Assembly: GCA_949752735.1 (NCBI GenBank)
Contig: OX457041.1
Span: forward strand, 26,466,076-26,530,075
Reading direction: 5' to 3'
Source: Lumbricus terrestris
Taxonomy: Eukaryota; Annelida; Clitellata; Crassiclitellata; Lumbricidae
Length of the DNA: 64,000 nt
Shown here: positions 1,462-63,741 of the stretch, piece after piece
Layout: every line of letters starts with the position of its first letter
Position numbering within the stretch: the stretch's first letter is position 1
Notes under the pieces: model-generated
The model's database searches: none
What the model was told of the DNA's origin: nothing
Seen by the model: only the letters and a program-made list of their open reading frames with translations
Made by a program: the position numbers and the translations under genes

Positions 1462-4400
1462 TTTCACATAATTTTATCTAATGATATTGACCCGGATATT
1501 AACCTATTTTCAAATCTGTCATGGGACAGCCACTACTCTACACCTGCTTCTCTCACCACCCTACTCAATACTCCTCGCCTGTTCACTACTATGCACCTGA
1601 ATTGTCGAAGTATGCAGTACAAAATAATGGATATAACTGATTTATTAAACACTCTCCCTGTTCCTATTCTGGCTTTAACAGAAACATGGCTAGATACAGA
1701 CTCGGTTGATACAATTAATATAGCAGGTTACCAAATTATTCACAAATCTCGAGTTTCAGGAAAAGGAGGTGGAGTAGGATTTCTCATAAGGGAGGATATT
1801 ACTTACGAGCTGCTTGATCTATCAATTTTTAATATGACCCACAAAACATTTGAGGGAATATTTATTCGTGTGCGGATGAGTAAGGGCAATTGTCTAATTG
1901 GAACTATATATAGACCCCCAGGAAATAGTCTGGAAGAGTTCACTCTTGAACTTGAACAGTTATTGTCCAAAATTGCAAATAAGGAGAAACACGTGATAAT
2001 TATGGGTGACTTTAACATTGACCTGCTTAAAGTTGAGGATCACTTTGGCACTAGTTCCTTTTTCGATAGTATGTCCTCCTATAATCTTCTCCCGACCATA
2101 ACCAGACCCACAAGAATTACCACTCATTCGTCAACGCTAATTGACAACATTTTCACAAATGCTTGGTCTAATATTATTGAATCTAAGAGTGTTGTATCTG
2201 ATATCTCTGACCATTTGCCTGTCTTAACCTCCTTTGATTTTGAAATGCCTAGCTCTAGGAACTCCTCATTTGAGGAATCCCGAATTATTAACGAAGAAGG
2301 AAGGGCTAATTTTAGCAATTATCTTTCTGAAGCAGATTGGACTCCTATTTTTGAAACCTGTCGCTTGAAAGATGCTAACAAAGCATATGACTTGTTTATG
2401 AAAGAATATAAAAGAAACTATGATAAGGCGTTTCCAATAAAAACTAATATAAATAAAGGAAAACCCATGCTTAAACAACCCTGGATGACTCCTGGACTTC
2501 TCAAATCTAGTAAGAAAAAAGCTAAACTTCATTTAAAATATGTAAAGGTCCCTACCCTTGCCAATAAAAATAAGTTTGTTTCATACAGGAATAAATTTAA
2601 AACAATTAGAATGAAGGCTGAAAAGCATTACTATGCTGTTGAATTTACCAAGCATGTTAATAATTTAAAGAAAACTTGGACCCTCATTCGAAGTATAATT
2701 AAAATGGATGAACAACATATTAAAATTGAAGCACTAAAAATCAATGGAATAAGAAATGATGACCCTAAAGTGATGGCTAATACTTTTAATAATCTCTTCT
2801 CTGACATCGCTCATACTCTTGCCAAACAAATTCCCGCTCCTAAATCTCCTTTTAACACATACCTTGACCCGCCACTTCCTTATTCTTTTGGCTTGGTTCC
2901 TACTTCACCTGAGGAAATAAAAAATTTGAGCCACTTGATCCACGACAGTCACAGCCGTGGCGTTGATGATATCGACCCTCATATTGCTAATTCTTACATT
3001 TCTCAAGTCGCAACCCAACTAGCTGAAATAATTAATTGCTCCCTCAATACTGGAGTTGTACCTGATGCTATAAAAATTGCAAAAATAGTCCCTATTTTTA
3101 AAAAGGGTGACAGGGAGAACCCTTCTAACTATAGGCCCATATCCATTCTTCCTTTTTTTGCCAAGTATTTTGAAAAAATAATGCATGATAGGCTCAATAA
3201 ATATGTAGAAAAATCTCATATTATTTTTCCATACCAATATGGCTTTCAATCTGGTCGATCTACTTTTATGCCTTTAATTGATATGTATGATAAAATTTCT
3301 AAGGCCTTTGAAAACAATGAATATTCTATTGGTATCTTCTTCGATTTAGCAAAGGCCTTCGATACTGTGAATCATGAGATCCTATTAAAAAAATTAGCTA
3401 ATTATGGCATCAGAGGCATCCAATTAGCTTGGTTTACCAGTTATCTCGAAAGACGTCTCCAGTGTGTTTCCTGCAATGGAGCTCTCTCAGACTTTAGAGT
3501 TGTTAGATATGGTGTGCCCCAAGGTTCTAATCTCGGACCCTTGCTTTTTCTTCTATACATTAATGACTTGCCTAATATATCTCCTACTCTTTCATTCATC
3601 TTGTTTGCTGATGATACAAATGTCTTCTACTCTCATAAATCCTACCAGAGTCTAATGCAAACAGTAAACAATGAACTTATCTTCGTAGCCGAATGGTTCT
3701 CTGCTAATAGACTCTCCTTAAACATTGATAAAACTAACTTTATGCTCTTTCGAACTAATAAAAAGATGTGCCCCCAGAATGAATTGCAACTGTCTATCAA
3801 TGATACCTCCATAACGCAGGTTAGCTCCACTAAATTTCTTGGTGTGTACATAGATCAACACCTCACATGGAATGATCATATTAAATATATCTCTGCCAAG
3901 GTTGCAAAAAGTGTTGGTATCCTTCGTCGAACTTCCCATATACTCCCCCCCCACTATCCGTGTTAAATTGTACTACTCATTAATATATCCTTATCTCTCA
4001 TACTGTAATTTAGTTTGGGCATCTACATATAAATCCAGGGTCAATAAATTAGTACTTCTCCAAAAACGTGCAATACGTATCATAGCTGGAGTTAAGCCTT
4101 TTATTCACTCAAGTCCTTTATTTCAATCATTTAATTTATTAAAGTTTCACCAAATAATGACTTTCCAGATAGGAGTCTTTATGTATCGGTTCACCCATGA
4201 TCTTCTTCCCCTTAACTTTGCAGGGTATTTCCAAAAAGGATCTGAAATTCACTGCTATTCCACCAGGAACTCCTCTCATTATCGAGCCATATCCGCTCGT
4301 TTAAACTCAAGAAGATTCCATATTAAATATACTGGACCAGGTATATGGAACTCGTTTCCTAGTCATGTTCAACAAGCTTCCAGTTTACAAAGAGCAAAAA

Positions 4401-4738
4401 CATTACTGCGCAACTACTTGGTTAATGACTGCAAAGATATTTAACCTTGTAGGCACTGATTTTATTTTATTATTATTTGTTGTGTTTGTTTTGCGTTCTT
4501 TAGTTAAGTTTACTACATTAATTGTCATCTCATGCTGTTCTTTTAGCCTATTGTTCAATTCATTATGTCAACCGTCTAGCCATCTGTTAAAATTGCATAT
4601 GTAATTAGGTGTCCCTGTTAGCGGGATATTCATCCCTTAGGGCCTTCCTTGTTACCATCCGATAATGTGAAGCATGTTATACTATGTCTATTGTGTATGT
4701 TGATGGTTGGTTACAATAAATGAATTGAATTGAATTAA
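1462..4738 (+). mobile_element. CR1/L2-like LINE, probably 5'-truncated
   Basis: A non-LTR retrotransposon whose ORF2 is nearly intact. The frame is open from 1462, upstream of the first Met at 1591. The sequence before that Met (a DIDPDINLFSNL stretch) resembles the segment that precedes the endonuclease in CR1/L2-group elements, so the copy probably continued further 5'. The 3' end is a short run of TTGAA-type repeats at 4719-4738, typical of this group, with no long poly(A). It is inserted in the piggyBac transposase fragment and is therefore younger. Confidence 0.85.
1591..4444 (+). pseudogene. LINE ORF2: APE endonuclease + reverse transcriptase, one frameshift
   Basis: The protein begins with an apurinic endonuclease domain: HLNCRS at the start, LTETW near residue 30, GTIYRPPG, GDFNIDLL near residue 140 and SDHLPV near 207. 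A reverse transcriptase follows: NYRPIS, GFQSGRST, DLAKAFDTVNH (about residue 585), YGVPQGSNLGP, and catalytic FADD at 672-675. The frame ends at 3966, but the LINE C-terminal domain continues in another frame (about 3950-4444), ending near the NSFPSHV and LRNYL motifs. The two join across a run of Cs at 3946-3953, so a single-base length change there explains the break. All other visible catalytic residues are kept. Replication is by target-primed reverse transcription in the nucleus. Confidence 0.88.
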
Positions 4739-5456: not shown

Positions 5457-5639
5457 TTGGACAAAGTCTACAATGCTTCCGCTCCGGAGGATGACATGAC
5501 TGAACGCTACGAAGAGATGAACCGGATGAGGGAGCACGTCATGACCGAGGTTGACAAGAACAAGGACAAGTTGATCAGCCTTGAAGAATTCCTTGAAAGC
5601 ACTCAGAGCGAGGAATTCAAGAAGGATGAAGGCTGGAAG
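5457..5639 (+). CDS. NUCB: Nucleobindin exon, linker and EF-hand 2
   Basis: This 183-bp exon (61 codons) starts LDKVYN right after an AG acceptor at 5455-5456 and ends EGWK before the donor GTAGAC at 5640. It contains the acidic linker EEDDM-like region (here PEDDMTERYEEMNRMREHV), then the second EF-hand loop D-K-N-K-D-K-L-I-S-L-E-E-F, then LESTQSEEF. Order, spacing and wording match vertebrate nucleobindins, where the second EF-hand and the acidic linker are the strongest signature. Phase is 0 at both ends, compatible with the exons on either side. The second loop keeps D, N/D and E at the coordinating positions, so Ca2+ binding looks intact. Confidence 0.93.
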
Positions 5640-6193
5640 GTAGACAGACCTCAGCTGGTTCTGTCCAAAGGGAAATGATTTTCAAAATGCGGTTTTAAAA
5701 CTTTTAAGGTGTTTAAATAGAGTCATACATTCATTCATTCATTCATTCATTCAATGGATTTATAATTGTAAAGAAATCTACTCAGGAGCGCTCCTAATCC
5801 ATCCAATGCACAAGGAAAAAAGACTTAAGAGCGTTTAGAAACAAAGTTTTATTGGTTAGCATTAATACATCTTACCGCAGTCAGGGCTGTTGACAGAGAT
5901 ATTTTCTACCTTACCACTTTTGTACGAAGCAAGCGAGGCAAAGCAAGGGCGCATTTAGACTCGGGATCATCTATAGCATTGCCTTACCGCACCATAACTT
6001 AATTAATTACCTTGACTTATCTCCTAACTGGCCTCACTTTACCTTAATTTACCATACCTTAAACTATAAGACTCTGCCCAATTTTGCAGTACATTACCTT
6101 GCTTAGCTTGCTGTACTTTTTCAGTAAATTACCTTACGTTACCTCAATTTTCTGACCTTACCTAAGTTCAACTTCTTATTAGATTGATGCAGC
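5640..6193. other. Intron with (ATTC)n and degenerate TTACC repeats
   Basis: Intron sequence with a perfect (ATTC)n microsatellite at about 5728-5752. A stretch at about 5980-6180 has loosely repeated CTTACC/TTACCTTA words. A short piece at about 5760-5800 (CTACTCAGGAGCGCTCC) resembles the 3' tail of LINEs seen elsewhere in the window. No exon seen. Confidence 0.5.
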
Positions 6194-6291: not shown

Positions 6292-6330
6292 CTCTAACTG
6301 CACATCGTGTCTCTTTCGTTGTGTTTAAAG

Positions 6331-6438: not shown

Positions 6439-6774
6439 GTTCGCCAGTCCACTTCTCTTGTTTCTTGTAACACAATGTAATACGATGTTTTGTAATGTGG
6501 TTCATGTAATGTAATTGGAGAAGATGGCTCATACAGTGCAGTTACGTTACAAAGCAATTTTAAGGATGCTTCATGGATGCTATCTGTTGGATAAGCATAA
6601 GATAATATTTAACATGAATATTTGAATTTTCACCAAATATATAACAAAATTAGCTGATTGATAAAAGTAAGTTAGCGTGAGGTGCAATAGATGTTCATGT
6701 TGTCACTTTAAGCAATAATCCTCGTGTTGAGTGATGCATAGCTAAAGTGAGGACATTATTAATATTCGCATATA
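6439..6774. other. Intron sequence, no feature seen
   Basis: AT-rich intron between the coiled-coil exon and the long-inverted-repeat element. Nothing recognisable. Confidence 0.5.
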
Positions 6775-9700
6775 GTCTAGGCGGTACACAAAAGTAAACT
6801 GCACTTTTTGAACACGGGTTGCCGATTGGCACAGTTGTAGTTGGGACCTAAGAGAACATTTTCAGAAGGGGAGCCATCCGAAATTTCCCTTAGAATTCAA
6901 GATGGCGGCTTTTTTTCAAAATGGCGGCCTGAGTCTAAGAAATTCTTATAAATCATCGTATCATCTCGTGTCTGGTGTCGTTTCTATATATTTCTGACTC
7001 GAATAACATGAATCTGAGGTCAAAATTAACATTATACATCAAAATTAAGCCAAAATAAGTATTTTTACATAAAAAACAGCAAAATTGCTATTAAAATTAT
7101 CAAATAGTTCTTCATTTTCATTTTCCTGTTTTCCAATTTCCTTGTGACATATTCCTTCATAACTCTGGATGTTTTCTCACAGTTTTGATTATTATGCATC
7201 GGAACCATTGGGAATTGTCCTTAGAACTCAAAATGGCGGTTTCTTAAAAGTGGCGTCCTGCGTCAAGGACATTCAAACAAATTGTCAAGACATGTCGCTT
7301 CTGGTGTCGTTTACATATATGATTTTTGACTCGCAAAACACCAATCTAAGGTCAAAATCATCTTAGGACATCAATATAAAGCCAATAATATTGGTCAATG
7401 TTTTGCAAAACAGCAAAACTGTTTTTATAAAAACAAATATTTCTTTTGTTTTCGTTGCTTTTCTTCGGTTTTTCGTGGCATACTTCCTCATGTATCTGGG
7501 TGGTTCTTGCAATTCTAATTATAATTATTATAATTTGTAATTAGACTAAATAGCTGAAACATAATAATCGTAGTTTTTCATGTTTCCACCCGGGAAGGGA
7601 AAACGCCCCCACAGCAGTTATGACCAACAGTACAGCGATGATTCTTTCGTCTCCATGCAACTCCTTCGGATCGATCGGGATCACGGACTCATCCAGACGA
7701 AGCAAAGGATCGACCGGGAACAGCTCTGCTACAATACTCTTTCCACCTTCTCTTCCTCCTCCTCCTCCTCCTCTCCTCCTCCTCCTCCTCCTCCTCTTCT
7801 TTCTTTAGGTCCAACTGCCTCATCCGACTTTAGGTGCTTGACTACAATGGAGGTCTGGTTGGATCACCCTCAGAAGTCCTGACGGTCAAAGTCGACGTTT
7901 AAGACATCAACGATAACGGTACAGTCTTCGAGGACCACGAGTTCACCCTGACGATCTCCGAGGCTTCACTTCCGGGGACCATCGTCAGTCTTCTACTCGC
8001 CAGAGACATCGACAGTCAGCGATTCGGCGCAAGAACTGCCGTATATTTCCGGTTCAGCAAATGCACTTCTGGCTGGTAAGTGACCTCCATTCTGGTCAGG
8101 ACGACACTGAACTGCAACTGGAACTGACTGGACAACTGGACCTCGAGCAAACTGACCGCTTCCGGTTGCACCTCGTGGCCTACGATAGTGGCAACCCAGT
8201 CCTGACTGGACAACTCGACATTCGACTACAACGACATTCAACGAAGATCGACCTTCGAAGTGTCTATTTCAGAGGACCTTGAGGCAGGATCAACGATCTG
8301 CAAGGTCATGGCTCGGACCGTGACCTTGGACCTAATGGATTAGATCGGTTCTACCTCGACGCCAGCACAAGGCCCTCAAGGACGACCGATCTCTACCGCA
8401 TAAATAACGAAACGGGGGCAATTGAGCTGCTGAGGAGGCTAAACTTTGAACCAGTATTTCTCCATTAATTGCAGGTGCTTGCCATTGACTCAAGTCATGA
8501 CGTCCGATTGACCGACGAAGCAAGCGTCATCGTACACGTCAATGAAAATGGACCTATTGTGATGGTCAATGTCCTGACAGAGTCCGGAGTGGCCGAGGTG
8601 TCTGAGGATGCTCTCATTGAAACCTTCGTCGCTCATCTCAGAGTCAACGATCCGGATGACGGGCTATATGGACAGATGACGTGTTCACTGGACGGTGACG
8701 GGGTCTTTCTGTGGGACCCAATCTGCTAGGATCAGTACAAAGTGACTAAAGCAGCATTGAGGTCAGTGGACCGTGAACCGACAGCTGAGCACCGTCTGAC
8801 CACTGTCTATAGTGATCTAGTATATCCAATGACGTCAACCATGGTGCAACTGATTGTCACGGTTGTTGACGAAGAGGATAATCCTCCGTCTTTTACGAGC
8901 GATATCTACGAGGAAATTGTCTTTAAGAACATCCACTCTGGTCATCATCTAGCTCTTGTAGAGGCAGTGGACCGTGACAAAGGACTGAGCGTAGTCATGC
9001 GATACGCAACTGACAAACATTTGAAGGAATGCTTCGATGTCCATCCTTCGAAAGGCATCGTCTCGGCCAAGGTCAGTCTCGATCAGGAGGTCACAATCAA
9101 GGTAAACGTATCCATCTTGGCCTTTGACGTTGACGTCATCAGCACTGCTTTTGTTGAACATCAAAGACATTGACGACGACATTCCACGGCTCATTGAGTT
9201 AAGCTACAGTTTCGGTGCCCTGGAAAACCAGCCAATCGGAACGCAGGTAGGAGATCATCATAGTCGACTGATGACAGTCATTGCAAGAGATGCTGATGCA
9301 GAAGACAATGCCCGTCTCTCCTATTACATCTCTCAGCATCCTGTAGACGCCGCTTGCCATCATCACCAGTCCACCACCACCGCAGCTTCCTTCAGATCGA
9401 CCAGAGAACAGGTGTCATCTCCATCAGCACTACCACCACCAGCATGTCTAAATCGACCAATCTGACTTTGTTCGTTGAGGTCCGTGATAGCGGCCCAACT
9501 GTTCGTCAGGCGCGAACCTTCTTCTATCTCGTCATCAGTGAATCACTCATCGAAAAAGCGCAGGGAGACGGATCGGATAAAGACGTCGTCGTTGTCATCA
9601 TCATAATCGTCGTCGTCATCGTCATAATCGTTGTACTGATGGTCAAAACTCCTGTGGCGGCGTTTTCCCTTCCCGGGTGGAAATATGAAAAACTACGATT

Positions 9701-10506
9701 TTTATGTTTCAGCTATTTAGTCTAATTACAAATTATAATAATTATAATTAGAAATGCAAGAACCACCCAGATACATGAGGAAGTATGCCACGAAAAACCG
9801 AAGAACAGCAACGAAAACAAAAGAAATATTTGTTTTTATAAAAACAGTTTTGCTGTTTTGCAAAACATTGACCAATATTATTGGCTTTATATTGATGTCC
9901 TAAGATGATTTTGACCTTAGATTGGTGTTTTTCGAGTCAAAAATAATATGTGTAAACGACACCAGAAGCGACATGTCTTGACAATTTGTTTGAATGTCCT
10001 TGACGCAGGACGCCATTTTTAAGAAGTCGCCATTTTGAGTTCTAAGGACAATTCCCAATGGTTCCGATGCATAATAATCAAAACTGTGAGAAAACATCCA
10101 GAGTTATGAAGGAATATGTCACAAGGAAATTGGAAAACAGGAAAATGAAAATGAAGAACTATTTGATAATTTTAATAGCAATTTTGCTGTTTTTTATGTA
10201 AAAATACTTATTTTGGCTTAATTTTGATGTCTAATGTTAATTTTGACCTCAGATTCATGTTATTCGAGTCAGAAATATATAGAAACGACACCAGACACGA
10301 GATGATACGATGATTTATAAGAATTTCTTAGACTCAGGCCGCCATTTTGAAAAAAGCCGCCATCTTGAATTCTAAGGAAAATTTCGGATGGCTCCCCTTC
10401 TGAAAATGTTCTCTTAGGTCCCAACTACAACTGTGCCAATCGGCAACCCGTGTTCAAAAAGTGCAGTTTCCTAACCAGAATCTGACTTGTACCGCTTAGA
10501 CTAATA
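6775..10506. mobile_element. Long-TIR element carrying a protocadherin fragment
   Basis: Two inverted arms of about 860 bp (6775-7633 and 9633-10506) flank a core of about 2 kb. The arms pair almost continuously: the sequence around 6800-6900 (AACACGGGTTGCCGATTGG) is read backwards at 10436-10460, and the inner ends share CCACCCGGGAAGGGAAAACG. Near the outer ends the arms diverge by small indels. The arms are noncoding and repeat AAGATGGCGGC-type words. I find no clear target duplication, so the superfamily is open. Mutator-like elements with long TIRs that pick up host genes are one model, and a hAT-type foldback is another. No transposase is present. Confidence 0.8.
7634..9640 (+). pseudogene. 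Protocadherin-like fragment (several EC domains + TM) inside transposon
   Basis: In shifting frames the core encodes cadherin repeats in order. First comes a strand with GLIQTKQRIDRE (7690-7725). Then, near 7905-8030, follows DINDN with a stop just before it, SEASLPGTIVSLLLARDID and so on. Next are GQLDLEQTDRFRLHLVAYDSG (8130-8195), then an ELLRR/AIDSS domain ending VNENGP (about 8380-8550). DEEDNPPSF (8870-8895) and ALVEAVDRDKG come next, then IKDIDDDIPRLIE, ARDADAEDNARLSYY, and DQRTGVISIS. It ends in a hydrophobic VVVVIIIIVVVIVIIVV membrane segment (about 9585-9630). At least six frame breaks or stops and a CT-rich repeat at 7750-7802 show decay. The core starts inside one domain and stops right after the membrane helix, where the right arm begins. 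No cytoplasmic tail is present. Confidence 0.85.
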
Positions 10507-10658: not shown

Positions 10659-11356
10659 ATGGTGATGTTTGATGTGATGTTTGATGTGCTGTTTGATGTG
10701 ATGTTTGATGTGATGTTTCATGTGATGTTTGATATGATGTTTGATATGATGTTTGATGTGATGTTGTGTGTGATGTTTGATGTAATGTTTGATGTGATGT
10801 TTGATGTGATGTTTGATGTGATGTTTGATGTGATGTTTCATGTGATGTTTGATATGATGTTTGATATGATGTTTGATGTGATGTTGTGTGTGATGTTTGA
10901 TGTAATGTTTGATGTGAGGTTTGATGTGATGTTTGATGTGATGTTTGATGTGATGTTTGATGAGTTGTTTTGATGTGATGTTTGATGTGATGTTGTATGT
11001 GATGTTTGATGTGATGTTTGATGTGATGTTTGATGTGATGTTTGATGTGATGTTTGATGAGATGTTTTGATGTGATGTTTGATGTGATGTTTGATGTGAT
11101 GTTTGATGTGCTGTTTGATGTGATGTTTGATGTGATGTTTGATGTGATGTTTGATATGATGTTTGATATGATGTTTGATGTGATGTTGTATGTGATGTTT
11201 GATGTAATGTTTGATGTGATGTTTGATGTGATGTTTGATGTGATGTTTGATGTGATGTTTGATGTGATGTTTGATATGATGTTTGATGTGATGTTTGATG
11301 TGATGTTTGATGTGATGTTTGATATGATGTTTGATGTGATGTTTGATGTGATGTTA
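10659..11356. repeat. 12-bp minisatellite GATGTGATGTTT
   Basis: About 58 copies of GATGTGATGTTT with variants (GATATGATGTTT, CATGTGATGTTT, GATGTGATGTTG). Higher-order repeats are visible, for example 10683-10778 against 10815-10898. The array makes long artefact frames on both strands because the unit is a multiple of three. It runs directly into the acceptor of the next nucleobindin exon. Confidence 0.95.
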
Positions 11357-22790: not shown

Positions 22791-23838
22791 ATGCCATCAA
22801 TGCTAAATCCCATGCATTGACATCATACAAATAATTTATTCCGCTAAAACAATAGATCACCAAAAAATAATCCAATACGCCACTTTATACTTTTCGACCA
22901 CTATTTGGTTTAAATATTTTTCTCGTAGTTGTCGATTTTTTTAATGGTTAGCGCCATCATTAATAAATGACAACACATCGAAGATAAAGCTGAATTAAAA
23001 TGAGCATAGAAAACTGACTGTAGACTATAGAGTAGGATTCTCCTATAATTAAAAAAAACAAAAAACATGTGTTCTCTTTTAAAGTTAACTGTTCATGACT
23101 ATTCAGTTATGCAGTTATTGTTTTTCAGTTTCTATTACAGTTTAAGTTATTCAGCATTTTTCAGTTTCAGTTTTAGTCAGTGCTTAAAGTGTAAAAAAAG
23201 AAGTGCCAGGACGCTGAATTGTATAATTGGTCGTCAGTGGCGGCGCCGAAGGCGCGAGGCTGCGAGTGCCGAAGGCACGAAGCCCATGGCGACTAGTAGA
23301 CAAGGCTTGGAATTCTAAAAGGGCTCTAGAAATCACTGCTAGAAGCAAATCATGTAACAATTTGCTAACCGGTGTTTCTAGACTAATTTGACCCTGCTGA
23401 AAACGAAAATCGCTGTTAGCAAGCTGGATTTTTGGCCGTTCAATGGGAAAACAAGATGGCGGACAAAATGGCGGTCAGTTGCTTCAAATGGCTATAAGTA
23501 AAGTATTGTATGTGACAGGAACACGATTTTAGACCCTAAATTAAGATTATAGGGTGCAAGGAATACAATGGAACCAAATACACATATGTGGCACTGCAGG
23601 AAAATCAAAATGGTGGACAAAATGGCGGCCAGAATCTTGAAATGGCTGTAAGTGAAGTTATGTATGCAGTGGAATCATGATTTCAGGGTCTAAATCAACA
23701 TTTTCGGGGTCAAGGAATGCAATGGAAGCAAGGTGACATATGTGGCATTGCACGGAAACCAAGATGGCGGACAAAATGGCGGCCAGAATCTTAAAATGGC
23801 TGTAAGTGAAGTTATGTATGCAGTGGAATCATAATTTT

Positions 23839-24196
23839 GGTTTGGGTCCACTATTCCGAGGGTCCACTATTCCGAAGGTCCACTATTCCGAACCCTAACC
23901 CTAAACCTAGCTCTGAACCTAACTATAACCCTAACCCTAACTCACCCCAACCATAACCATAACCCTCAACCTAACCCTAACCCATCCCAACCATAAACTT
24001 AATCCTAACCCTCCCGAACCCTAACCATAACCCTAAACTTGATCCTAACCCACCCAACCCCAACCCACCTTAGCCCAACCATAACCCTAACCCACCCCAA
24101 CCATAACCACCAAGGATAACGAACAAAATATAGCGCGCCTATTCGGAATAGTGGACCTTCGGAATAGTGGACCCTCGGAATAGCGGGCCGTTACCC
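23839..24196. mobile_element. MITE with CTATTCCGA repeats and telomere-like core
   Basis: A 358-bp insertion in the left arm of the foldback element. Flanks are ATAATTTT at 23831-23838 and 24197-24204, a perfect 8-bp duplication. Each end carries three copies of a 15-bp unit around GTCCACTATTCCGA, inverted relative to each other. The core is a degenerate CCCTAACC/CCATAACC array. The matching right arm of the host element shows the uninterrupted site (near 27075), which proves the insertion. Confidence 0.88.
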
Positions 24197-24849
24197 ATAA
24201 TTTTAGGGTCTAAATCAACATTTTCGGGGTCAAGGAATGCAATGGAAGCAAGGTAACATATGTGGCATTGCACGGAAACCAAGATGGCGGACAAAATGGC
24301 GGACAAAATCTAAAAATGGCTATAAGTGAAGACATATATGCAACTAAATCATAATTTCAGGGTCTAAATCAACATTTTCGGGGTCAATGCATGTGATGAA
24401 ACCAATGTCACATATATAGCACTGCCTGGAAACCAAAATGGCGAACAAAATGGCGGCAAGAATTTCAAAATGGATGTTAGTGAAGTCATGCATGCAATGG
24501 GAACTTGATTCAAATTTTTTGCCAGGTCTTTGCAAGATGGTATCTGAGACCTGTGCAGTTGAATTTATCCCCAATGTTTCCTTATTTGACTAGATATGAT
24601 CATTCAAATTATCGCAATGCCTTCAGCAAGTATTAAACCAAGGAGTGTTGTTCAAAAGACCACTGACAAAATTATAAAGGAAGATTGGCATATCATGCAG
24701 TGCCTTATGATATCGTATCAAGCCGACTGTCCCATGGATCTGGAAACACGATTGTGCCATGGACTTTTCTCAAAACCAATTGGATTGGATTCTCTCCGCA
24801 AAAGTAACTTGTCCAGTTCGCATTTCTATCTATAGCAGAGGCATAGCAT

Positions 24850-25400
24850 TTATTTATCTAGAATATTTTATGTAGCGCCTCTTCAAGGTAGGCTACTCGG
24901 AATCGCTCCCGACTTAACCACAACTGAATAGGACAGTTTTTAGATTCTTAAGGAACAGACTTCAACAGAGTGGAGTGACCCATGGGCTTGCAATAAGCGC
25001 TGTGAAAAGGGGTTGGCCATTCCCATTCCAGATTTTAGAACCAGCTACAGAGAATGAAAGGTGATGTCGAATAGCAGACCGCGAGTGAACCAGCTCAGCT
25101 TGGTCCGCCAACCGAAGAGTAGATCGACGCTGGACATCCGAGGTTGAAAAACAGAGTTCTTTCAGACATAGTGGGGCTAGTCCATCAAGGCATGCACTAC
25201 CTAACCAACACACAAACCCTGCAGGCAATCCGCTGCGGTAAAGGGAGCCAATGCAAGACATCCCGCATATTGTACGAGACATGACCAAATATTGTGATAT
25301 GCCCATAAGTCGTGACGCAGTTCATCCGACCTGTTGCAGACAAATTATTGATGGACAGGCAATGGTTCAAGCGACGGGGAACCTCCAAACGCGAAGACAT
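24850..25400 (-). pseudogene. LINE ORF2 C-terminal fragment
   Basis: On the minus strand two overlapping frames read the C-terminal domain common to CR1-like LINEs. They contain LHWLPLPQRIACRVCVLV (about 25200-25260), then CLDGLAPLCL, STSDVQRRSTLRLADQAELV and FSVAGSKIWN. One frame break separates the two. Toward lower coordinates comes a 3' UTR with GAGGCGCTACATAAA, typical of these elements. It is strongly 5'-truncated. Confidence 0.78.
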
Positions 25401-27480
25401 TTGTTGACCTGACAGGTACAGTGGATACCTGTGTACAGGTAGCCTACTGTTGATCGGCTACAAGAGGGCTAATAATTATTGCCTTCGATAGATATAGTGG
25501 ACATTGCTTTTAAACAGTGAAATCGTACAGAAAATTATCACCACAACTCTGTCACTGTGTGGTGTCTTGAAATACTCCGTTGTCGGAAAATTGGATGAAT
25601 GTTCTTGGTATGCTTGAAAGAAAGACTAATCTAGCTTCATTCCTGTCCATTCAGCTTTCAGCAGCCACATTTGGAGATATGGACTAGAGCGGTTGCTGGT
25701 GGTTGCGTGAAAAAAGATAACGTGTTGTCCACTGCCGGGTCGTATGTGTTTGCTTTGTATTTAACGGTGTTTTGGTGATGGCAGGAACATCAGCGGAACA
25801 GAAGCTCATCCAATTCACGTAACTATGAAGAATTGAATGGCCTTCATGCTACAGCTGGGTGTGATTTGACATATTTAGCAGGAATCAGCTGACAGAATGC
25901 ATGAATAAACTAGGCCTACTTGAAAGTTCCCACTTACTTTCTACATTTGAAACATTCCCTTATGAGCTCATTACCAAAGTGTAAGTTTGAAAAGGCCTAT
26001 TTCCTAGATATTGATGTTCAGATATCATCCTCATCTTCATCAGATAGAGTGTGGTGGAAGAAAGTAATCCTTACCAGTGTGCGCCAAAGCCACATTGTAG
26101 AGTGTGTCTACAACAAATCATGTGAAGTTGACAAACGTAGCATCAGTCCCTGCTGCTATCGAAGTGCAATCTTGTCATGTGCACTCAGGTGCAATTGCAT
26201 TGACAGCAACAAGGCCTGAATTGACTCTACGGTACCCTAGGCCTATATCCGTCAAGTCATGAAAAGTTGAAACTATTGATAGGTCAAGTTATGAAAGATT
26301 GAAGCATGCATACTGTATATCCATAAAGCCAGCAATAGTTAAACTGCAGTGCAGTCATAGGCTAATAAAAAATTTCACTATAGGTATGACAATTTCACTG
26401 CATAGCACTGCATGTGATTTTGTTGGAAGCATCTGACCTGGAAATTACTAGTCCAGACTGAAATCTAGTCTCCATCGCATATGTTCAATACATCCCTCAT
26501 AACCAGTTGAGGTTTTTGTCCACCATTTTGTTTTTGGTTTTCTGGCAGTGTCACATAATATATTCCGTGTCTTTAATTTCATCACTTTCCTTAATTCCGA
26601 AAATTCTCATTTACATTCTGAATTGATGTATTCATTAGATACAAATATTCACTAACAGCCAATTCAAGAATCTGGCCGCCATTTCGATGTCCAGGCAGTG
26701 CTATATATGTGACATTGGTTTCATCACATGCCTTGACCTCGAAAATATTGATTTAGACCCTGAAATTATGATTCCATTGCATACATAACATCACTTATAG
26801 CCATTTTAAGATTTTGTCCGCCATTTTGTCTGCCATCTTGGTTTCCGTGCAATGCCACATATGTTACCTTGCTTCCATTGCATTCCTTGACCCCGAAAAT
26901 GTTGATTTAGACCCTGAAAACATGATTCCACTGCATACATAACATCACCTATAGCCATTTTAAGATTTTGTCCGCCATTTTTTCCGCCATCTTGGTTTCC
27001 GTGCAATGCCACATATGTTACCCTGCTTCCATTGCATTCCTTGACCCCGAAAATGTTGATTTAGACCCTGAAATCATGATTCCACTGCATACATAACTTC
27101 ACTTACAGCCATTTTAAGATTCTGGCCGCCATTTTGTCCGCCATTTTGATTTTCCTGCAGTGCCACATATGTGTATTTGGTTCCATTGTATTCCTTGCAC
27201 CCTATAATCTTAATTTAGGGTCTAAAATCGTGTTCCTGTCACATACAATACTTTACTTATAGCCATTTGAAGCAACTGACCGCCATTTTGTCCGCCATCT
27301 TGTTTTCCCATTGAACGGCCAAAAATCCAGCTTGCTAACAGCGATTTTCGTTTTCAGCAGGGTCAAATTAGTCTAGAAACACCGGTTAGCAAATTGTTAC
27401 ATGATTTGCTTCTAGCAGTGCCATTTTGAGATTCCAAGCCTGGTCTATAGGGGGTCTGAGGGAGCGTCGCAAGCTCCCCA

Positions 27481-28689: not shown

Positions 28690-28982
28690 GATTGCACAAA
28701 TCATCAGTCGGCAATCATTTCAGTTGATACAGTAGTAGTAAATCATCAGCCGATCGGTTGGTTGAAAGAATCCGGTCAGAATCTGAGAACTATAGGTCAG
28801 GATTCGACTCCTCCTCTTCATTTAGGATCGATGAATGTTCTTGGGTTTTTCTTACTTTTCATTTTATTTGGCTCTGAGCTGTTTGCGGTCTGAACTCTTT
28901 TTCTGAGATGTTTACGCAGTGTGAGAAAGAAGATGTTCTCAGATGTTTTCAGAGTTGTATTTTGGTCTCGTGTTTTATTCAG

Positions 28983-29326
28983 GTGATCAAGTGCACGTCC
29001 AAGGTCAACAGGCGGCTCAAGGTCAGCAACCAGTTCAAGGTCAAGAGCAGCCAGCGCAAGGTCAGCATTCAATTCAAGTCCAAGAGCATCAAGTTCAAGG
29101 GCACCAGCAACCAGCTCAGAACCAGCAAGAACCCGTACAAGCTCAGCAGCAGCCAGTCGAAGGTCAACATCAGCCAGTCCAGGATCAACAACAGCCAGTC
29201 CAGGATCATCAACAGCCAGTCCAAGGTCAACATCAGCCAGTCCAAGGTCAACAGCAACCACTTAAATTTGAGCAACAGCCAGTTCAAGGCGACCAAGAAC
29301 CAGGGAACGGTCAACAGAAACTTTAG
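28983..29326 (+). CDS. NUCB: Nucleobindin candidate 3' terminal exon 2, Gln-Pro-Val repeats
   Basis: After a TTTTATTCAG acceptor (AG at 28981-28982) the phase-1 frame reads GDQVHVQGQQAAQGQQPVQG and continues for about 114 residues to TAG at 29324-29326. It is built of roughly 10-residue repeats around Q-x-QQPVQ and Q-H-QPVQ. Phase matches the end of the exon at 11358-11460, and the Q-rich character continues that exon's. Downstream, copy A ends with AATAAA near 32019. The intron would be 17.5 kb, or the exon could be an alternative last exon. The repeat nature leaves some doubt that it is translated. Confidence 0.62.
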
Positions 29327-32324: not shown

Positions 32325-33815
32325 ATTTTCACCAATCATTTCAGCTGATCCGTTGGGGAAAGAATCCAGTTAGAATCTGAGAACTATAGGTCAGGGCATT
32401 GACTTGTCTTCATTAGGATTGAAGAACGTTCTTGCGTTTTTCGTATTTTTTTGGCTCGGAGCAGATTGCAGACTCAACTCTTGTTTCTTGGCAGCTTAGA
32501 CAGTTGATATGAGAAGCATGGTATGGTCGTATGCTCATTGCTTTTAAAGTTGTCTGTTTGTCTTGTGTATTATGCAGGTGATCAAGTGCATGTCCAAAGT
32601 CAACAAGCAGCTCAAGGTCAGATTCCGATCCATAGTCAGCAGCAAGTTCAAGGTCAAAAGCAACCAGTCAAAGAGCATCGAGTTCAAGGTCACCAACAGC
32701 CAGCTCAAAACCAACGAAAAGAAGTCCATTTAGTTGCTTAATTGTAATGCTTGCATTGTTTTCCGGCTATCCACAATTTTGCGGTGAATTCATCAATTAG
32801 AGCAATAGGAATATCTTGATAACAGTGACAATGACAATGACATCTTTAATGTCACATTAAGCATGCCCGAACTGGATGAAATGTTGGTGTTTTGAATCTC
32901 ATTAATATTAGTAGTTTTATTATTTTTATGTTATTATTGTTATTTTTTAATATTTGATTATTTATTTGATTTATTTAGTTTCTTTTTTGCATCGGTTGTT
33001 TTGATATTTGATTATTATTATCATTATTTTTATTACTATTATTTTCATTGTAGAACGATTTATATAATGACGTAGCTGAGCCAAGGTCAAAGATAAGGGC
33101 ACTGTACACGACTAACTGTCTGCAGACAGTTTCCATCTCCTGAGGGATTACACTTAACTCTTGTAACATAATAATCATAGTAGTCGTCATAGTAGGCGAC
33201 TATTCATAGCAGCAGCAGCAGCATGACTATTAGCAATACTGAAAAACTTCTAAGGACGCAGCATCTAATGCGCACAGCATATGGCATTTGTACAGACAAT
33301 CCTATGACGAATTACCTCTTGTGCTTTACATAGTAATATTACTTTACTTTAAAGAATCTCTTTGTTATGTTGCAGTTTCAATCATAATTTTTTTCTGTAC
33401 AAGTTGTCTTGGTTGTAATGTGCGTGTGTGTGTGTGTGTTTGTGTGTGTGTGCGCGCGCGTGTTTGTGTGTGTGTTTGTGTGTGTAAGATTTGATTTAGT
33501 TAGTTTTTATTTTGCATTGGTTGTTTTGATATTTGAAGCGTGTGCACCTGTTCAAAGTATCAAAATAGACAAAAACTCCGTTTAACTGTTGCATTGGTTG
33601 ACACTATTTGTCGTGCATTGCAACTCATTCAAACATTCCACTTGAACTGGTTGCATGACTTACATATTATTCTGATTTTGTTGTTGTATTTTCTGGTTCA
33701 TTTAATTTTAGGTTTTTTGTTTTTGTGGATATTGAATACATGTTGATCTGTTGTCAGCTAGCTTGAAACTTTTCTTTCTAACTGTTTATTTTGAATTAAA
33801 AATGAATAAATTATT
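32325..33815 (+). repeat. Tandem segmental duplication, copy B
   Basis: Second copy of the unit described at 28690-32040, same orientation and immediately downstream. Relative to copy A it lacks the LINE, most of the Q-rich exon and adjacent 3' sequence. Both copies end with a short AATAAA-containing block (near 32019 and 33803). Confidence 0.85.
32578..32741 (+). CDS. NUCB: Nucleobindin candidate 3' terminal exon 3 (shortened duplicate)
   Basis: After a TATTATGCAG acceptor (AG at 32576-32577) the phase-1 frame reads GDQVHVQSQQAAQGQIPIHS and ends KEVHLVA with TAA at 32739-32741, about 54 residues. It aligns with the first half of terminal exon 2. The remainder was deleted, so its stop lies in what is 3' flank in copy A (compare GTTGCTTAATTGTAATGC at 32733 with GTTGCTGGATTGTAATAC near 29614). 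It could be a used alternative exon or a decaying duplicate. Confidence 0.5.
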
Positions 33816-46015: not shown

Positions 46016-46208
46016 CTTCGTCTTTGTAGTCATCCGTCATCAACATCATCATCGTCATCATCGTCGTCATTATCATCTTCATCGTCGTCGTCTTCGTCAT
46101 CATCATCGTCACCATCATCATCATCATCGTCGTCGTCATCGTCGTCATCATCGCCGATCATCATCATCATCATCGTCGTCATCGTCATCATCATCGTCGT
46201 CGTCATCG

Positions 46209-46278
<70 letters not shown>

Positions 46279-46420
46279 CCATCATCATCATCATCGTCGT
46301 CGTCGTCGTCGTCGTCGATCATAATCATCATCATCATCATCATCATCATCGTCGTCGTCGTCGTCATCATCATCATCATCATCATCTTTATAATCATTTA
46401 TCATCGGCATCATCGATCAT

Positions 46421-46457
<37 letters not shown>

Positions 46458-46530
46458 GTCATCATCATCATCATCATCATCATCATCGTCGATCATCATC
46501 ATCGTCGTCGTCGATCATCATCATCGGGTT
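46016..46530. repeat. (ATC/GTC)n compound microsatellite
   Basis: About 500 bp of CATCATCAT interspersed with CGTCGTCGT blocks and GATCATC joints, plus a (CAG)n run at 46431-46453. Confidence 0.97.
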
Positions 46531-48778: not shown

Positions 48779-51181
48779 TCAGGCCAAAAGAGTTCCGGAT
48801 AAACACCACTTTTTCGCCAACATCTGATCGTTTCTAAGACGTCGAAGAATGTTTGACTTCCACTTAAACGACCTCCGGGACACGTTGACTCTTGTGACGT
48901 CATTCAACGCGGCTTTGGCGCCATTTCCCCCGTCCAACTTGGGATCCACCTTTGCACATGACGGGGATCGACGATTGTCATTGGTCGAGGCGCCACCGCG
49001 TAGTTTCAAATCGTCCAATAGAGACGCTTCGAAGGCGTTGACGTCACATCGGACGAGGTCTTGCCTCATGACGTCACCGTCGTCTAATGCGATGACATCG
49101 TTACGGCTTAGTAGGCATCGTTCAGAGCCGGAATAGTTGCACACGTTGACGTCACCAATTACGTCATCGATGACGATGGTACGCAACTGTTCGCAGCCGT
49201 GAAGGAATGTCGAACGTCCGTTGGATTTGGTAGGCTCCCAATCGACCGGAAAATCGGTGGAAGTTTCCACGGTTTCGTCGGGAATTTTGCAAGTTATGAG
49301 AGCAATGGGTTCTGAGGGAATCGCTTGGATTTCGAAGGTGGTTCGTTCGAATTGAGCAGACGACTTTCTGGTTCTTCCGTCGACGTTCTTCCTTGTTGAA
49401 CCGTCGTTCGTTTCCTTTTCCAGGATCTTCTCCATCATGCTGCTGACGACGGTCTTGTCGACGACCGCCCAAAGTTGTTGGACTCGCTTCGACGACGGAA
49501 CGACGCCGGCGTTTTGCCCCGTCTGAGTAGCGGAAGCGGTTTCTTCATCGTGTCCCGTCTGCAGAAGAAGCTGTCTCGGTTCCTCGCCGAAACACGTTTC
49601 GAACTGCAATGCATTCACAACGCGAACCACGTCTTTGTCAAGTTGAGACGGGATCGCCGGCAGTCTGACAGGATTGGTCTGAGATCCGTTCCTGGCAAGA
49701 CAACTTCCTTCGAATCCTGGGTTTCTGTGGGACCCGGATGATGGAGTTTCGGTTACTCCTCCTTCAGCGCTGTGATGTTTCGACCCGGATCTCGGCTGAT
49801 CCCTAAATCTACGACTGTGTGGTCGCTGTAAATCGTCCGTCATCCGCGTAGGAAACTTGGTCCGTAACTGCATGGACACCTCCTGTTGCGCTTCGAACGA
49901 AAGGTGTCTGACATCCCAGTCTCTATCCATCACGTCGGTCAATGGGGTAAATTCAGTGGACGAGGCATTTTCGCTCGACCAACCCTCGGGACATTTCCTC
50001 AGCTCGGCGGCACTCATGTCGACTATTTCGTCATCGGGAAAACAAACTGGATCATCAAAGTCTCGGGTGTAATCGACTTGTCTCATGTCGAGCACCGAGG
50101 AGCAGTCCCGCGTAGGTTTTCTCTTGACCGGAGACGTGTTTTCCACCTTCACGGTGACACCTTCGACTTCCCCCGTCTTACCGGAGGCGGCACGATGCGA
50201 AGCTTTCCACCCGTTTCCTTCCAGACTGTTGTTGCCTGGAGCGGCGAGCTTCGGTATTCTGAGATCGATATTTGGAATGGACTTGATTTCAACGGTGAGC
50301 AAATCGTTCAGGATGGACCCTTCCGTTACACTACTTCTCGTCGTTGTGTGGCGTTGCGTAGCGCCAGCGGAACCATGCTTTCCGCCGTTGTCATGGGAAC
50401 CGGGATTGAAAGCCCTCGGTATTCGCAGAGGACATCTGCCGCCACCGCTGGTGTTCTGAGAGGACGATGACGACGTCATGCTGTTCGTTTGGTTGAGTGA
50501 CGACATAATTTTATCAAGTATCTGTGACTCCGTGCACGTGTTGTATTCATCATCCGTTTCCAGCTTGACGATCGATCCGTGTGGAAGATGTTCAGCAATG
50601 GTTTCGGTGTTCGCTCTCATGCAACCGACTGACTTACCCTTCTTCTTCGGAACATCACGAACGCTGTCGGTTCTACTCGAGTTCGCCTTTTCCGGTGGCA
50701 ATTTCCGATTTGGGAGACATCCAGTGGATGGAAGATTCTTCCAAAATCCTCTAGCTGCTGTTCCGTGATCGCTGGTTCTATGTTTCGATCGACCGGTATC
50801 GATATCGGAAGATCGACGGGATATCTTCTCGGCAATCACGACCGTGGAGGATTTTTCCGTCCTATCCAGCTCTCGTTTGTTGCCCATTGATGTGGCTCTT
50901 CCCTCCCTGGCGGCTGTTCCAGAACTCCGCTGCGGCGGCGGCGGCTCTCCGATGCTGCTACTGCTGCTACTGCTGCTGGTGCCCGGTCCGAGTTCATCAT
51001 CCTGATTTAGGAGTTTGATGAGCTCGCTGCAGTTGGAAATGATTGTCGCTGGAAGAGGATGTGGTGGAATGGCGGCGGGATGCGTTTCTTCCATCTCTGA
51101 CAGGGCCCGGTTGAGTATAGTCTGATATTTGTCCTTGCTCAGTGCGAACCAAGGTTCTTCGGTGACAGCACCCGACAGCAT
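48779..51181 (-). CDS. Unrecognised 800-residue Ser-rich protein
   Basis: A single uninterrupted frame of 801 codons, GC- and CpG-richer than its surroundings, which argues for real coding sequence. I do not recognise the family. Visible features are an N-terminal EEPWFALSKDKYQTILNRAL helix (about residues 8-27), a poly-Ser run followed by PPPP (about 70-80), and long polar, probably disordered stretches. Two SUMO-type psi-K-x-E sites are present (VKLE near 207 and VKVE near 344), the latter followed by a basic SPVKRK. There is an acidic DDEIVDMSAAEL segment (about 375) and a basic C-terminus with SFKWKSNILRRLRN. No membrane segment is seen. This would suit a nuclear regulator, but that is inference. 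The frame stays open upstream of the first Met to 51508 without another ATG, so the true start may lie in an upstream exon. Confidence 0.68.
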   Translation of the reverse strand: MLSGAVTEEPWFALSKDKYQTILNRALSEMEETHPAAIPPHPLPATIISNCSELIKLLNQDDELGPGTSSSSSSSSIGEPPPPQRSSGTAAREGRATSMGNKRELDRTEKSSTVVIAEKISRRSSDIDTGRSKHRTSDHGTAARGFWKNLPSTGCLPNRKLPPEKANSSRTDSVRDVPKKKGKSVGCMRANTETIAEHLPHGSIVKLETDDEYNTCTESQILDKIMSSLNQTNSMTSSSSSQNTSGGGRCPLRIPRAFNPGSHDNGGKHGSAGATQRHTTTRSSVTEGSILNDLLTVEIKSIPNIDLRIPKLAAPGNNSLEGNGWKASHRAASGKTGEVEGVTVKVENTSPVKRKPTRDCSSVLDMRQVDYTRDFDDPVCFPDDEIVDMSAAELRKCPEGWSSENASSTEFTPLTDVMDRDWDVRHLSFEAQQEVSMQLRTKFPTRMTDDLQRPHSRRFRDQPRSGSKHHSAEGGVTETPSSGSHRNPGFEGSCLARNGSQTNPVRLPAIPSQLDKDVVRVVNALQFETCFGEEPRQLLLQTGHDEETASATQTGQNAGVVPSSKRVQQLWAVVDKTVVSSMMEKILEKETNDGSTRKNVDGRTRKSSAQFERTTFEIQAIPSEPIALITCKIPDETVETSTDFPVDWEPTKSNGRSTFLHGCEQLRTIVIDDVIGDVNVCNYSGSERCLLSRNDVIALDDGDVMRQDLVRCDVNAFEASLLDDLKLRGGASTNDNRRSPSCAKVDPKLDGGNGAKAALNDVTRVNVSRRSFKWKSNILRRLRNDQMLAKKWCLSGTLLA

Positions 51182-51508
51182 CTTGCTTCCGGTGCTTGCC
51201 GATCGTCGTACTGCTTCCGGAATAAGACGGGAATCGCCGTTTTTGTTTTGTATACACTCAGAAGAGTAGTCAATTTCACAAGTTGTTTCAAGTCGGTAAT
51301 CTAACCTGTAGTGCAGAAAGGTATACAGTTGCTTTGACGAGCGCTCGGGATCGGAGTTGTCCAGCAGACGTCCGAAAGAACTGGTTGAGCTTTCGGTTTC
51401 TGAATAGCCTATTGTTGTTGCGTTGAAGTGCAGAAACGTTGGCCTATAGTCACCGTAGGTAACAACTTTGGAATCGCTCTTTTGTCTTGATATATACAGA
51501 AATGCAGG
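51182..51508 (-). other. Open extension upstream of the 800-residue frame
   Basis: Read on the minus strand, the 109 codons before the ATG contain no stop (first in-frame stop at 51509-51511) and no Met. The translation includes SSFGRLLDNSDPERSSKQLY. Two parts resemble each other at DNA level (TTTCTGCAC and CGATTCC blocks), suggesting a local duplication. It may be coding, from an exon start near a ...CAG or ...AAG site, or 5' UTR. Confidence 0.4.
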
Positions 51509-61560: not shown

Positions 61561-63741
61561 TAGGGCTGTCCAGAAAAACAAAAAGTTTCAGAAAACAAAA
61601 CACCCATACTCAAGTTTTTCCCATGCTTTTATTCATGTGTGGCCTACAGATATTTTTTCAGAATTTTAAAATGTCATCCTAGGGTCCCTCATGGCCCCTG
61701 AACTTAGAGACCGATTTTGGTAGAAATCGCATGTATTTTCAATACGAACAACTGATAGCGAAGCAGATAGGACTCACAGTTGCACTATTAGACATCAAAC
61801 TGATATAATTTTCATTACTCTTGACTAATCAGCAATAAAACAAGTTGAAATGTACTATCTGAGCAATTTAGGGGCCGTCCATAAATGATGTCATGCAATT
61901 TAAGACGATTTTTTTTACCCCGAACCCCCTCGTTACACGTCGTCACAAAATTCATGCGTTATCTAGTAAGAAACTGTCACAAATAGTCGCAGATGTGTGA
62001 CCCGACCCCTCCCCGGGGTGCTTAACGTCATTTATGGACGGTCCTCAATGAAGTACCAATACGCACCCGCCGCAGGCGTTGCATCATGTGGTTCACATCT
62101 CTATTGTTCACATAATGTTGGTAATGCGACTGTTGTGAAGGCCTTGACACAAAGCCTATATGCTTAAAGATGTTGACTCTCCAATAGCACCCAGATTTAC
62201 TCGTAGTGTCTTGCTTAATGTCTTCTTGTCAAAAGTTTGGAATTGCTTCATGTGCTCTTTGACATCTGCAAAGGCCATGGAGGATCTTTGTTCAGGATCG
62301 GTCGTAATAATGGTTGCGAAGTATGATCTAAGCTTCAGTCCATGCTCAGCTGTGTTGTTTGCTGATGCTCCAGCAGGATGATCTCTTGCTTTGTCCATGA
62401 CATGATTGATTTTAGTGTACCGTAGTTGATAATGGCAGTAACTTGCCAATACTGAAATTGATTTACTTGACAACCACCGATGGTACCCAGCCCCAGAGCA
62501 AGAATCCACAGGGTGGTTGGGATTTCAACCTACCAGTATTTCCTACAGACCCATAGTAAGGTATGTTTTTCACACACCAATTCCTAGTGGATCATAGACC
62601 AATACCCCCCGTTATTTGTACACAATTCTCACACTGGTGGTATTTCACGGAAGACACTGTTCCATTTGTACTTTTAAGCAAAAATCCCATGATAGCAAGA
62701 ATAATTAGCGACTCGCTTGTTAGCAACACCACTGCATGCCATCTACAAGCCTTCAAACAAGTTGCTCACGATACAACCTTAACGAAACCTAACTGACCCA
62801 GAATCACACACTCTGTTCTGACTGCTGGATATCATATCAGCAATGACTGGCTAGCTAAGCCAGCCAATCAATGGTCATGTGACAATACATACATCTCAGC
62901 TGAGAAATTGTTTTGTGCTGTAAAAGTTGTAAAGGACACAGCTGAGCATGAACTGAAGCTTATTATCAGACTTCGCAACCATTATTACGACCGATCTTGA
63001 ACAAAGATCCTCAATGGCCTTTACAGGGTGTCGAACAGCACATGAAGCTATACCAAACTTTAGGCAAGAAGACATTAAGCAAGGCACTACGAATAGTGTC
63101 CCGTAATCATAGTCCATAGGTGCTATTGGAGAGTCGACATCTTTAAGCATATAGGTTTTATGTCAAGGCATTCACAACAGTCGCATTACTAACATTATGT
63201 GAAAAAAGGGATATGAACCACATGATGCAACGCCTGCGGCGGGTGCATATTTGTACTTCATTGGGGACCGTCCATAACTGACGTCACGCACCTCGGGGAG
63301 GGGCCGGGTCACATATCTGTGACTATTTGTGACAGTTTCTTACTAGATATCGTAAGAATTTTGTGACGACGTGTAACGTGTTCGGGGTAAAAAATCGTCT
63401 TAAATTGCATGACGTCATTTATGGACGGCCCCTTATATTGCTCAGTTGGCACATTTCAACTTGTTTTAATGCTGATTAGTCAAGAGTAATGAAAATTATA
63501 TCAGTTTGATGTCTAATAGTGCAACTGTGAGTCCTATCTGCTTCGCTATCAGTTGTTCGTATTGAAAATACATGCGATTTCTACCAAAATCGGTCCCTAA
63601 GTTCAGGGGCCATGAGGGACCCTAGGATGACATTTTAAAATTCTGGAAAAAATATCCGTAGGCCACACATGAATAAAAGCATGGGAAAAAAACTTGAGTA
63701 TGGGTGTTTTCTGAAACTTTTTGTTTTTCTGGACAACCCTA
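61561..63741. mobile_element. Mutator-like long-TIR element, 9-bp duplication
   Basis: Ends TAGGGCTGTCCAG and the inverse CTGGACAACCCTA. The flanks AAGATACCC at 61552-61560 and 63742-63750 are identical, a 9-bp duplication. The inverted arms are about 800 bp each (61561 to about 62360, and about 62930 to 63741) and differ by scattered substitutions and indels. Long TIRs plus a 9-bp duplication are the Mutator-like (MULE) pattern. I could not recognise a transposase. Confidence 0.78.
62156..62509 (-). pseudogene. Unrecognised 117-codon frame in the long-TIR element
   Basis: An open frame crossing the inner edge of the left arm, with LASYCHYQLRYTKINHVMDK and EHMKQFQTFDKKTLSKTL. Part of the same coding-like sequence is repeated, broken, in the right arm (near 62935-63110, TAEHELKLI). 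It could be a relic of the element's own protein or of a captured host gene. I do not recognise it. Confidence 0.4.

Follow-up and report, generated by a model that had tools for sequence, protein, structure and literature searches.

A long-armed element enclosing a protocadherin fragment

We analyzed a 64,000-nt stretch of contig OX457041.1 of the annelid Lumbricus terrestris (the window, to which positions refer unless stated otherwise), in which two long inverted arms and a decayed protocadherin fragment between them form a 3,731-bp element (6773-10503). This element very probably belongs to a nonautonomous cut-and-paste family with long terminal inverted repeats (TIRs), that is, an animal Pack-TIR, whose founder would have taken up, a single time, ~2 kb from the coding exon of a protocadherin, and which would have spread by means of a transposase provided in trans. 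Several parts of this interpretation were observed directly: the arms, the tips, target duplications of 3 bp, an empty site at a paralogous repeat, dozens of copies that share one cargo, and a parent-like gene at another genomic location.

Self-comparison of the window delimited a left arm at 6773..7642 on the forward strand and a right arm at 9624..10503 on the reverse strand. As proposed in the initial annotation, these are inverted and ~860 bp long each, with 97-98% identity over two ungapped blocks, namely 6911-7642 against 9624-10355 (732 nt, 98%) and 6793-6920 against 10345-10472 (128 nt, 97%). That annotation had placed the element at 6775..10506; the start was thus set 2 bp late, and the right end took in the target duplication. 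Each arm harbors two diverged units at 329-bp spacing (6911-6991 and 7240-7320 in the left one; 73% identity). Both tips lie outside the matched blocks, the left reading TAGTCTAGGCGGTACA... and the right being the reverse complement of TAGTCTAAGCGGTACA..., and they can be told apart by a stretch of 18 bp in type A that is replaced by 7 bp at the same place in type B. Tip comparison, together with a genome-wide tip search, assigned type B (TAGTCTAGGCGGTACACAAAAGTAAACTGCAC) to 6773..6804 on the forward strand and type A (TAGTCTAAGCGGTACAAGTCAGATTCTGGTTAGGAAACTGCAC) to 10461..10503 on the reverse strand. The triplet ATA stands on either side of the element, at 6770..6772 and 10504..10506, and flank comparison identified it as the target site duplication.

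The cargo at 7643..9623 (forward strand) runs from part of cadherin repeat 1 to a membrane helix, and is interrupted by stops and frameshifts. Among eight window frames searched, forward-strand frames between the arms match Pfam Cadherin (best E 2.4e-10); this run of broken frames ends with the helix, whose coding end at 9582..9647 reads DVVVVIIIIVVVIVIIVVLMVK in frame 9297-9725 and overlaps the right arm with its last part. In another copy (L013), a 307-aa frame matches Cadherin at 5.8e-19 and has protocadherin 6vg1 as its best solved-structure match (1.5e-37), so the decayed run of cadherin repeats recognized earlier is confirmed by both kinds of match. Contrary to the former description, the right arm does not start exactly after the helix: the innermost part of the left arm carries ~45 bp of helix-coding sequence as well, in inverted form (7598..7642, reverse strand, reading IIAVLLVITAVGAFS in the reverse-strand frame 7541-7804), and the inverted repeat therefore extends into the gene fragment. 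The left junction is the hexamer CGATGA (7636..7641), common to the inverted helix end and to cadherin repeat 1 of the parent gene described below. In agreement with the reported lack of any trace of a transposase, the matches of the eight frames to Pfam with E up to 1 include no transposase family, arm-only frames (≤67 aa) not having been searched.

Genome-wide copies, donor gene, and capture

With the left arm as query, the assembly (1.06 Gb, 331 contigs) yielded 231 candidates, 40 of them scored; all 40 listed matches reached 91-100% identity, and they occur as inverted pairs a few kb apart on many contigs. The arms are thus dispersed rather than confined to the window. The tip pattern returned 94 exact matches (49 and 45 by strand) vs none for the reversed control, and the 16-bp tip alone 97 vs none, so recurrence of the tips is not due to chance. 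Joining forward to reverse tips gave 37 exact pairs, 3,103-4,571 bp long, on 17 contigs. A cadherin match from the genome protein search (129 of 473 candidates scored) is enclosed in all 37, which argues for one capture followed by amplification. Viewed at the single locus, arms around a decayed core would equally suit an inverted duplication of local repeats that enclosed a protocadherin pseudogene, with no mobile element involved, as the initial annotation had entertained; this is now exceedingly improbable, given that one and the same core recurs in 37 exact-tip pairs distributed over 17 contigs, and given the target duplications and the empty site documented below. A local origin of the core, within a protocadherin cluster and with arms found only here, was likewise discarded because cadherin-bearing pairs are dispersed.

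Twenty-six element places were fetched (20 + 6), of which three without a second tip (L021, L032, and L034) were dropped; with the window element, the remaining 23 make up a set of 24 copies, all of which end in TAGTC...GACTA. Twenty of the 94 tips remained unpaired. The four at L059-L062 belong to fragments, those at L010 and L023 to complete copies whose opposite tip carries a mismatch, and those at L021 and L034 lead into N, while the one at L032 lacks a partner; three unpaired tips adjoin a cadherin match. The 16-mer search added four places, one completing a pair with C11:42141751 and another lying inside a cadherin copy (C8:29860504). Elements combining the same arms with a different core had been expected, and none was found among the 37 exact pairs and the tips read, ten single tips with no listed cadherin match nearby being unread. 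L034 had been considered as a solo arm devoid of core and was rejected, its interior being an N run. At C16:14742662-14751422, two copies stand in tandem 5,450 bp apart with equal cadherin match scores, probably through later duplication of an insertion site.

Identical 3-bp flanks border 22 of the 24 copies, as opposed to 49 of 552 comparisons of the left flank of one copy with the right flank of another. TAA/TTA accounts for 8 and ATA/TAT for 6 of the 22 duplicated triplets. Moreover, L009 is inserted in a repeat of which an unoccupied copy occurs in L023: the flanks of L009 joined with one TAA give an alignment to it of 149 columns that spans the junction with 94% identity (223 bits), and joins with TA (211 bits), nothing (213 bits), or TATA (205 bits) score lower. 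Matching flanks and empty site together indicate insertion with a 3-bp duplication. A duplicated TA was rejected because flank comparison shows TA to be part of the tip and the next 3 bp to be duplicated. L014 and L024 were not counted as empty-site cases, their matches being repeats in their own flanks (71-82%) and, for L014, also in L032 (72%). Collectively, the same-core pairs, the 3-bp duplications, and a parent gene lying elsewhere support the transduplication by a nonautonomous long-TIR element that had been suggested for this locus.

The genome protein search also retrieved stop-free cadherin frames with identities of 31-43%. Many of these measure 700-1,100 aa, and we interpret the group as protocadherin genes of the host itself. 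A single stop-free place reached 74% (C7:473185). There, positions 3243-4846 of L057 (C7:471742-473345) hold an open frame that proceeds from a hydrophobic start through cadherin repeats and shares 78-85% DNA identity with the long cores. This gene, 26 Mb from the window element on the same chromosome, is the likely parent of the cargo. Where a copy retains the left end of the cargo, its alignment to L057 starts at ~4002-4010, corresponding to the left junction in repeat 1, and parent sequence upstream of this point is absent from the elements. The readable part of L057/L058 lacks any arm match other than that of a tandem repeat to an insert in the arm of L024, and the 3,055 readable bases past its N run do not match the elements; the search recommended for a parental protocadherin has thus led to a parent-like gene whose readable part carries no arms. 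N runs occur inside this gene and also adjoin arms in L021/L035 and L034, likely as assembly gaps at repeats; the equal totals in L057/L058 and L021/L035 led us to take those runs for such gaps.

Sixteen of the 24 copies, each with more than 500 bases aligned to the parent, were compared with it by codon position in columns covered by at least 8 of the 16. Differences from the donor common to at least 80% of copies numbered 18, 24, and 49 at first, second, and third positions (p 1.3e-4), and changes private to single copies 78, 63, and 54 (p 0.10). Shared differences thus fall mainly at third positions and private ones do not, which indicates that the donor lineage was constrained as a coding gene and that the cargo drifts neutrally as a passenger. 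Could the cargo nonetheless be a functional part of the element, its cadherin-like protein kept by selection during amplification? Some cadherin core persists in all 37 exact pairs, and long open frames exist in some copies, of 380 aa in L016 and of 307 and 200 aa in L013. Against this, a frame open through the whole cargo is missing from each of the first 19 copies read, private changes show no third-position excess, and the left part of the cargo is lost or replaced in 10 of the 24 copies; we hence regard selection on the cargo as highly improbable.

The junctions also hint at how capture may have proceeded, since the inverted helix end passes into cadherin repeat 1 at CGATGA, a motif present in both the helix end and the donor. 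We infer capture by gap-filling synthesis: the two alike arm ends would have primed synthesis from one place just behind the donor's helix, the left extension halting after ~45 bp and the right one continuing ~2 kb back into cadherin repeat 1, whereupon the extended ends would have joined at the microhomology. Such a route resembles the gap-filling and template-switching models set out in PMC8277862.

Exchange between the arms

All 37 exact pairs combine one A tip and one B tip, with no A-A or B-B pair among them. Relative to the cargo, the A tip stands on the left in 20 (AB) and on the right in 17 (BA; binomial p 0.74), and the 24 fully read copies split into 14 and 10. On the core tree of these 24, orientation changes at least seven times vs a mean of 7.9 with shuffled labels, and 33% of 500 label shuffles gave seven changes or fewer. 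Even sisters can differ, as evidenced by the window copy (BA) and L009 (AB), grouped with 100/99 support.

The two arms of the same element are mutually closest in 15 of the 24 copies, which suggests recombination between them, and arm distances have a median of 1.9% within elements vs a mean of 8.6% between elements. Within-element differences span 0.2-5% in 22 copies; the larger values of L025x (23%) and L028 (17%) are inflated by insertion and truncation, and both copies were retained in the counts. In addition, a split with full support (100/100) sets off ten copies whose arms are extended into the cargo, with approximately core 1793-1982 inverted at both ends in eight of them and core 1540-1981 in the other two (L020 and L033). 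Among 19 copies (171 pairs), the core diverges by 12.8% and the arms by 6.5-6.9%. CpG decay does not suffice as the only cause of the faster core, for 10.5% vs 5.0-5.2% persisted without CpG-like sites.

These observations suggest that recombination between the arms, by crossover and conversion, explains flipping, homogenization, and lengthening together. After capture, the arms of one element would continue to pair with each other; a crossover between them would flip the cargo relative to the tips, conversion would hold the arms alike, and, in one lineage, inward copying would have lengthened them into the cargo. We tentatively carry this one step further and picture an isomerizing transposon, in which the arms of the excised or broken element might pair in every, or nearly every, transposition cycle, and in which the same pairing might have enabled exon capture and later arm lengthening. 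If so, the two orientations of the cargo would be equally likely on leaving, every round would equalize the arms, and further movement would be restricted to elements with one tip of each type.

Assembly of long, near-identical inverted arms is difficult, and in L021 and L034 such arms border on N runs, so that random cargo orientation might be an artifact of assembly, with all real copies oriented one way. This seems unlikely in view of the well-supported sisters of opposite orientation and of within-element arm differences of 0.2-5%, resolvable by long reads if the assembly rests on such reads; furthermore, the likeness of arms within elements is separate evidence for their interaction. Nor do we favor tips swapped by gene conversion between the ends of an element with no inversion of the cargo. 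Conversion does seem to occur, judging from the homogenized arms, but conversion of a single tip predicts A-A or B-B elements, which are missing from the 37 exact pairs, although such elements might be immobile and hence rare; swapping of this sort is accordingly rather improbable.

Classification, related systems, and genomic setting

Several hallmarks of Pack-TIRs are present: host-derived sequence between TIRs (the cadherin core in 37/37 exact pairs), target duplication and movement (3 bp in 22/24; one paralogous empty site), and a parental copy without TIRs (L057 3243-4846, in which the left junction alone is seen, the 3' half falling in an N run). The arms, ~860 bp long with internal units 329 bp apart (73%), fit Foldback-like elements as well. 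Mutator-like elements (MULEs), plant members of which (Pack-MULEs) had served as the initial comparison, make target duplications of 8-10 bp, not the 3 bp found in 22 of the 24 copies. CACTA/EnSpm elements terminate in CACTA...TAGTG, and TAGTC...GACTA in 24/24 copies sets the family apart from them. PIF/Harbinger elements usually target TWA, and the 3-bp duplication leaning to TAA/TTA and ATA/TAT points to a PIF/Harbinger-like mobilizer as a first guess. A 3-bp target duplication is documented for that superfamily (PMC2213677), and its DDE_Tnp_4 transposase domain (PF13359) has 59 matches in this genome, many with long open frames; such an affiliation would be in keeping with the length of the duplication and the AT-rich choice of target. 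Tc1/mariner elements duplicate TA (PMC8277862), which here lies inside the tips with the outer 3 bp duplicated, one TAA giving the best fit to the empty site (223 bits). The P superfamily, including Galileo, with duplications of 7-8 bp, is in its usual form at odds with the 3-bp duplications.

Some findings weigh against this overall interpretation. No autonomous element or transposase bearing these tips was found, the four unpaired tips read being fragments and ten single tips being unread; five of the 59 DDE_Tnp_4 loci, read over 4 kb each, showed neither a tip matching the 16-mer with up to 4 substitutions nor ~860-bp arms. Two of the 24 copies (L022 and L033) lack matching flanks. An N run of exactly 5,000 (3,055 + 1,945) covers the 3' half of the parent, leaving its right junction unseen, and, with parent-cargo identity of only 78-85%, the cargo could instead derive from a sister gene that was lost or has diverged. 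As for exchange between arms, those of the same element are not mutually closest in nine of 24 copies, the count of orientation changes is weakened by the star-like shape of the core tree, in which 11 of 21 inner branches are open, and the flips could partly be assembly errors, N runs lying beside the arms in L021 and L034.

The closest known kind is that of multicopy animal Pack-TIRs, including Ssk-FB4 of Drosophila. Across 100 animal genomes, 370 Pack-TIRs are reported in PMC8277862, the captured pieces having a median length of 224 bp; transduplication in animals is thereby commoner than the initial annotation supposed, although few multicopy cases are named there: four in frogs and alligators, plus Ssk-FB4. 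One frog example has three derived copies; Ssk-FB4 occupies three loci, one tandemly duplicated, with duplications of 9-10 bp, FB4 being a long-TIR element that acquired nearly a whole gene (PMC8277862). Our family shares with these a host gene piece between TIRs, lack of autonomy, separate target duplications, and a parent locus elsewhere. It departs from them in having at least 37 copies against the few described in that text, in a 3-bp duplication against 9-10 bp in FB4, and in a cargo of ~2 kb of one protocadherin exon against the 224-bp median, which covers all Pack-TIRs rather than multicopy cargos. Plant Pack-MULEs, named in the same text, similarly transduplicate gene pieces by nonautonomous TIR elements, and differ from this family in its 3-bp duplication and single cargo.

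Galileo, of the P superfamily and with 7-bp duplications, is described as lengthening its arms by recruiting inner sequence (PMC3573991). Galileo and other Foldback-like elements resemble the present family in long, internally repeated arms, arm lengthening, and proposed exchange between copies and arms; neither a captured host exon nor cargo flipping relative to the tips is described for them in the portion of PMC3573991 at hand. Inversion by recombination between TIRs, termed barely documented in PMC3004938, affects the interior of Wolbachia insertion sequence elements at 9% of the insertion loci investigated. Our family undergoes what appears to be the same inversion, in an animal element with ~860-bp arms and at a proportion close to half (17/37) rather than 9%, the latter figure being that given for these bacterial elements in PMC3004938. 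Among the papers listed in searches of the open-licence literature, we found no transposon capture of a protocadherin. As far as we have seen, the family exceeds the multicopy animal cases described in copy number, and a cargo far above the Pack-TIR median and the randomized cargo orientation further set it apart.

Upstream of the insertion, the forward-strand frame 5457..5675 contains a nucleobindin exon (Nucleobindin 1, 1snl, E 4.5e-13; EF-hand 4.7e-4, under the curated cut-off). The sense-strand relationship of the element to nucleobindin proposed initially thus agrees with the strand of this frame, and its placement in a nucleobindin intron is deduced from exon-like frames at 6298 and 28925, for which a Pfam search gave no match. 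Two alike glutamine-rich frames on the forward strand (DQVHVQ.QQAAQGQ...; 28925-29323 and 32508-32738) are perhaps duplicated exons of the nucleobindin tail.

Other repeats share the window. A 12-bp minisatellite (GTGATGTTTGAT, 58 copies; 10662-11355) begins ~160 bp to the right of the element. A second long-arm element (23334-27420) has arms at 23334-23837 and 26917-27420 (504 nt, 98%) made of ~154-bp tandem units rich in ATGGCGGAC, and a non-repeated interior of ~2 kb; its left arm contains, at 23838-24195, an insert with inverted GGTCCACTATTCCGA-like ends and an interior AACCCT-like array. The long imperfect palindrome at 61653-63651, with arm pieces of 222, 175, 88, 67, and 62 nt at 88-96%, is perhaps a third fold-back element. 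A long interspersed nuclear element with endonuclease and reverse transcriptase (1462-4444; 834-aa frame, RVT_1 1.6e-37) runs on in another frame. An array of ~160 TCA triplets (46037-46525) can be translated into long frames of Ser, Ile, Val, or His, and a 909-aa open frame on the reverse strand (48779-51508) has two relatives found (54-60%), both without precomputed Pfam domains.

The family thus represents a well-preserved animal DNA transposon that has multiplied most of a protein-coding exon to dozens of copies, and whose likely donor, left junction, target duplications, and empty site are recognizable in one genome. Junction microhomology and arm-primed synthesis make the proposed capture mechanism testable, and the two distinguishable tips provide a marker for recombination between the arms.

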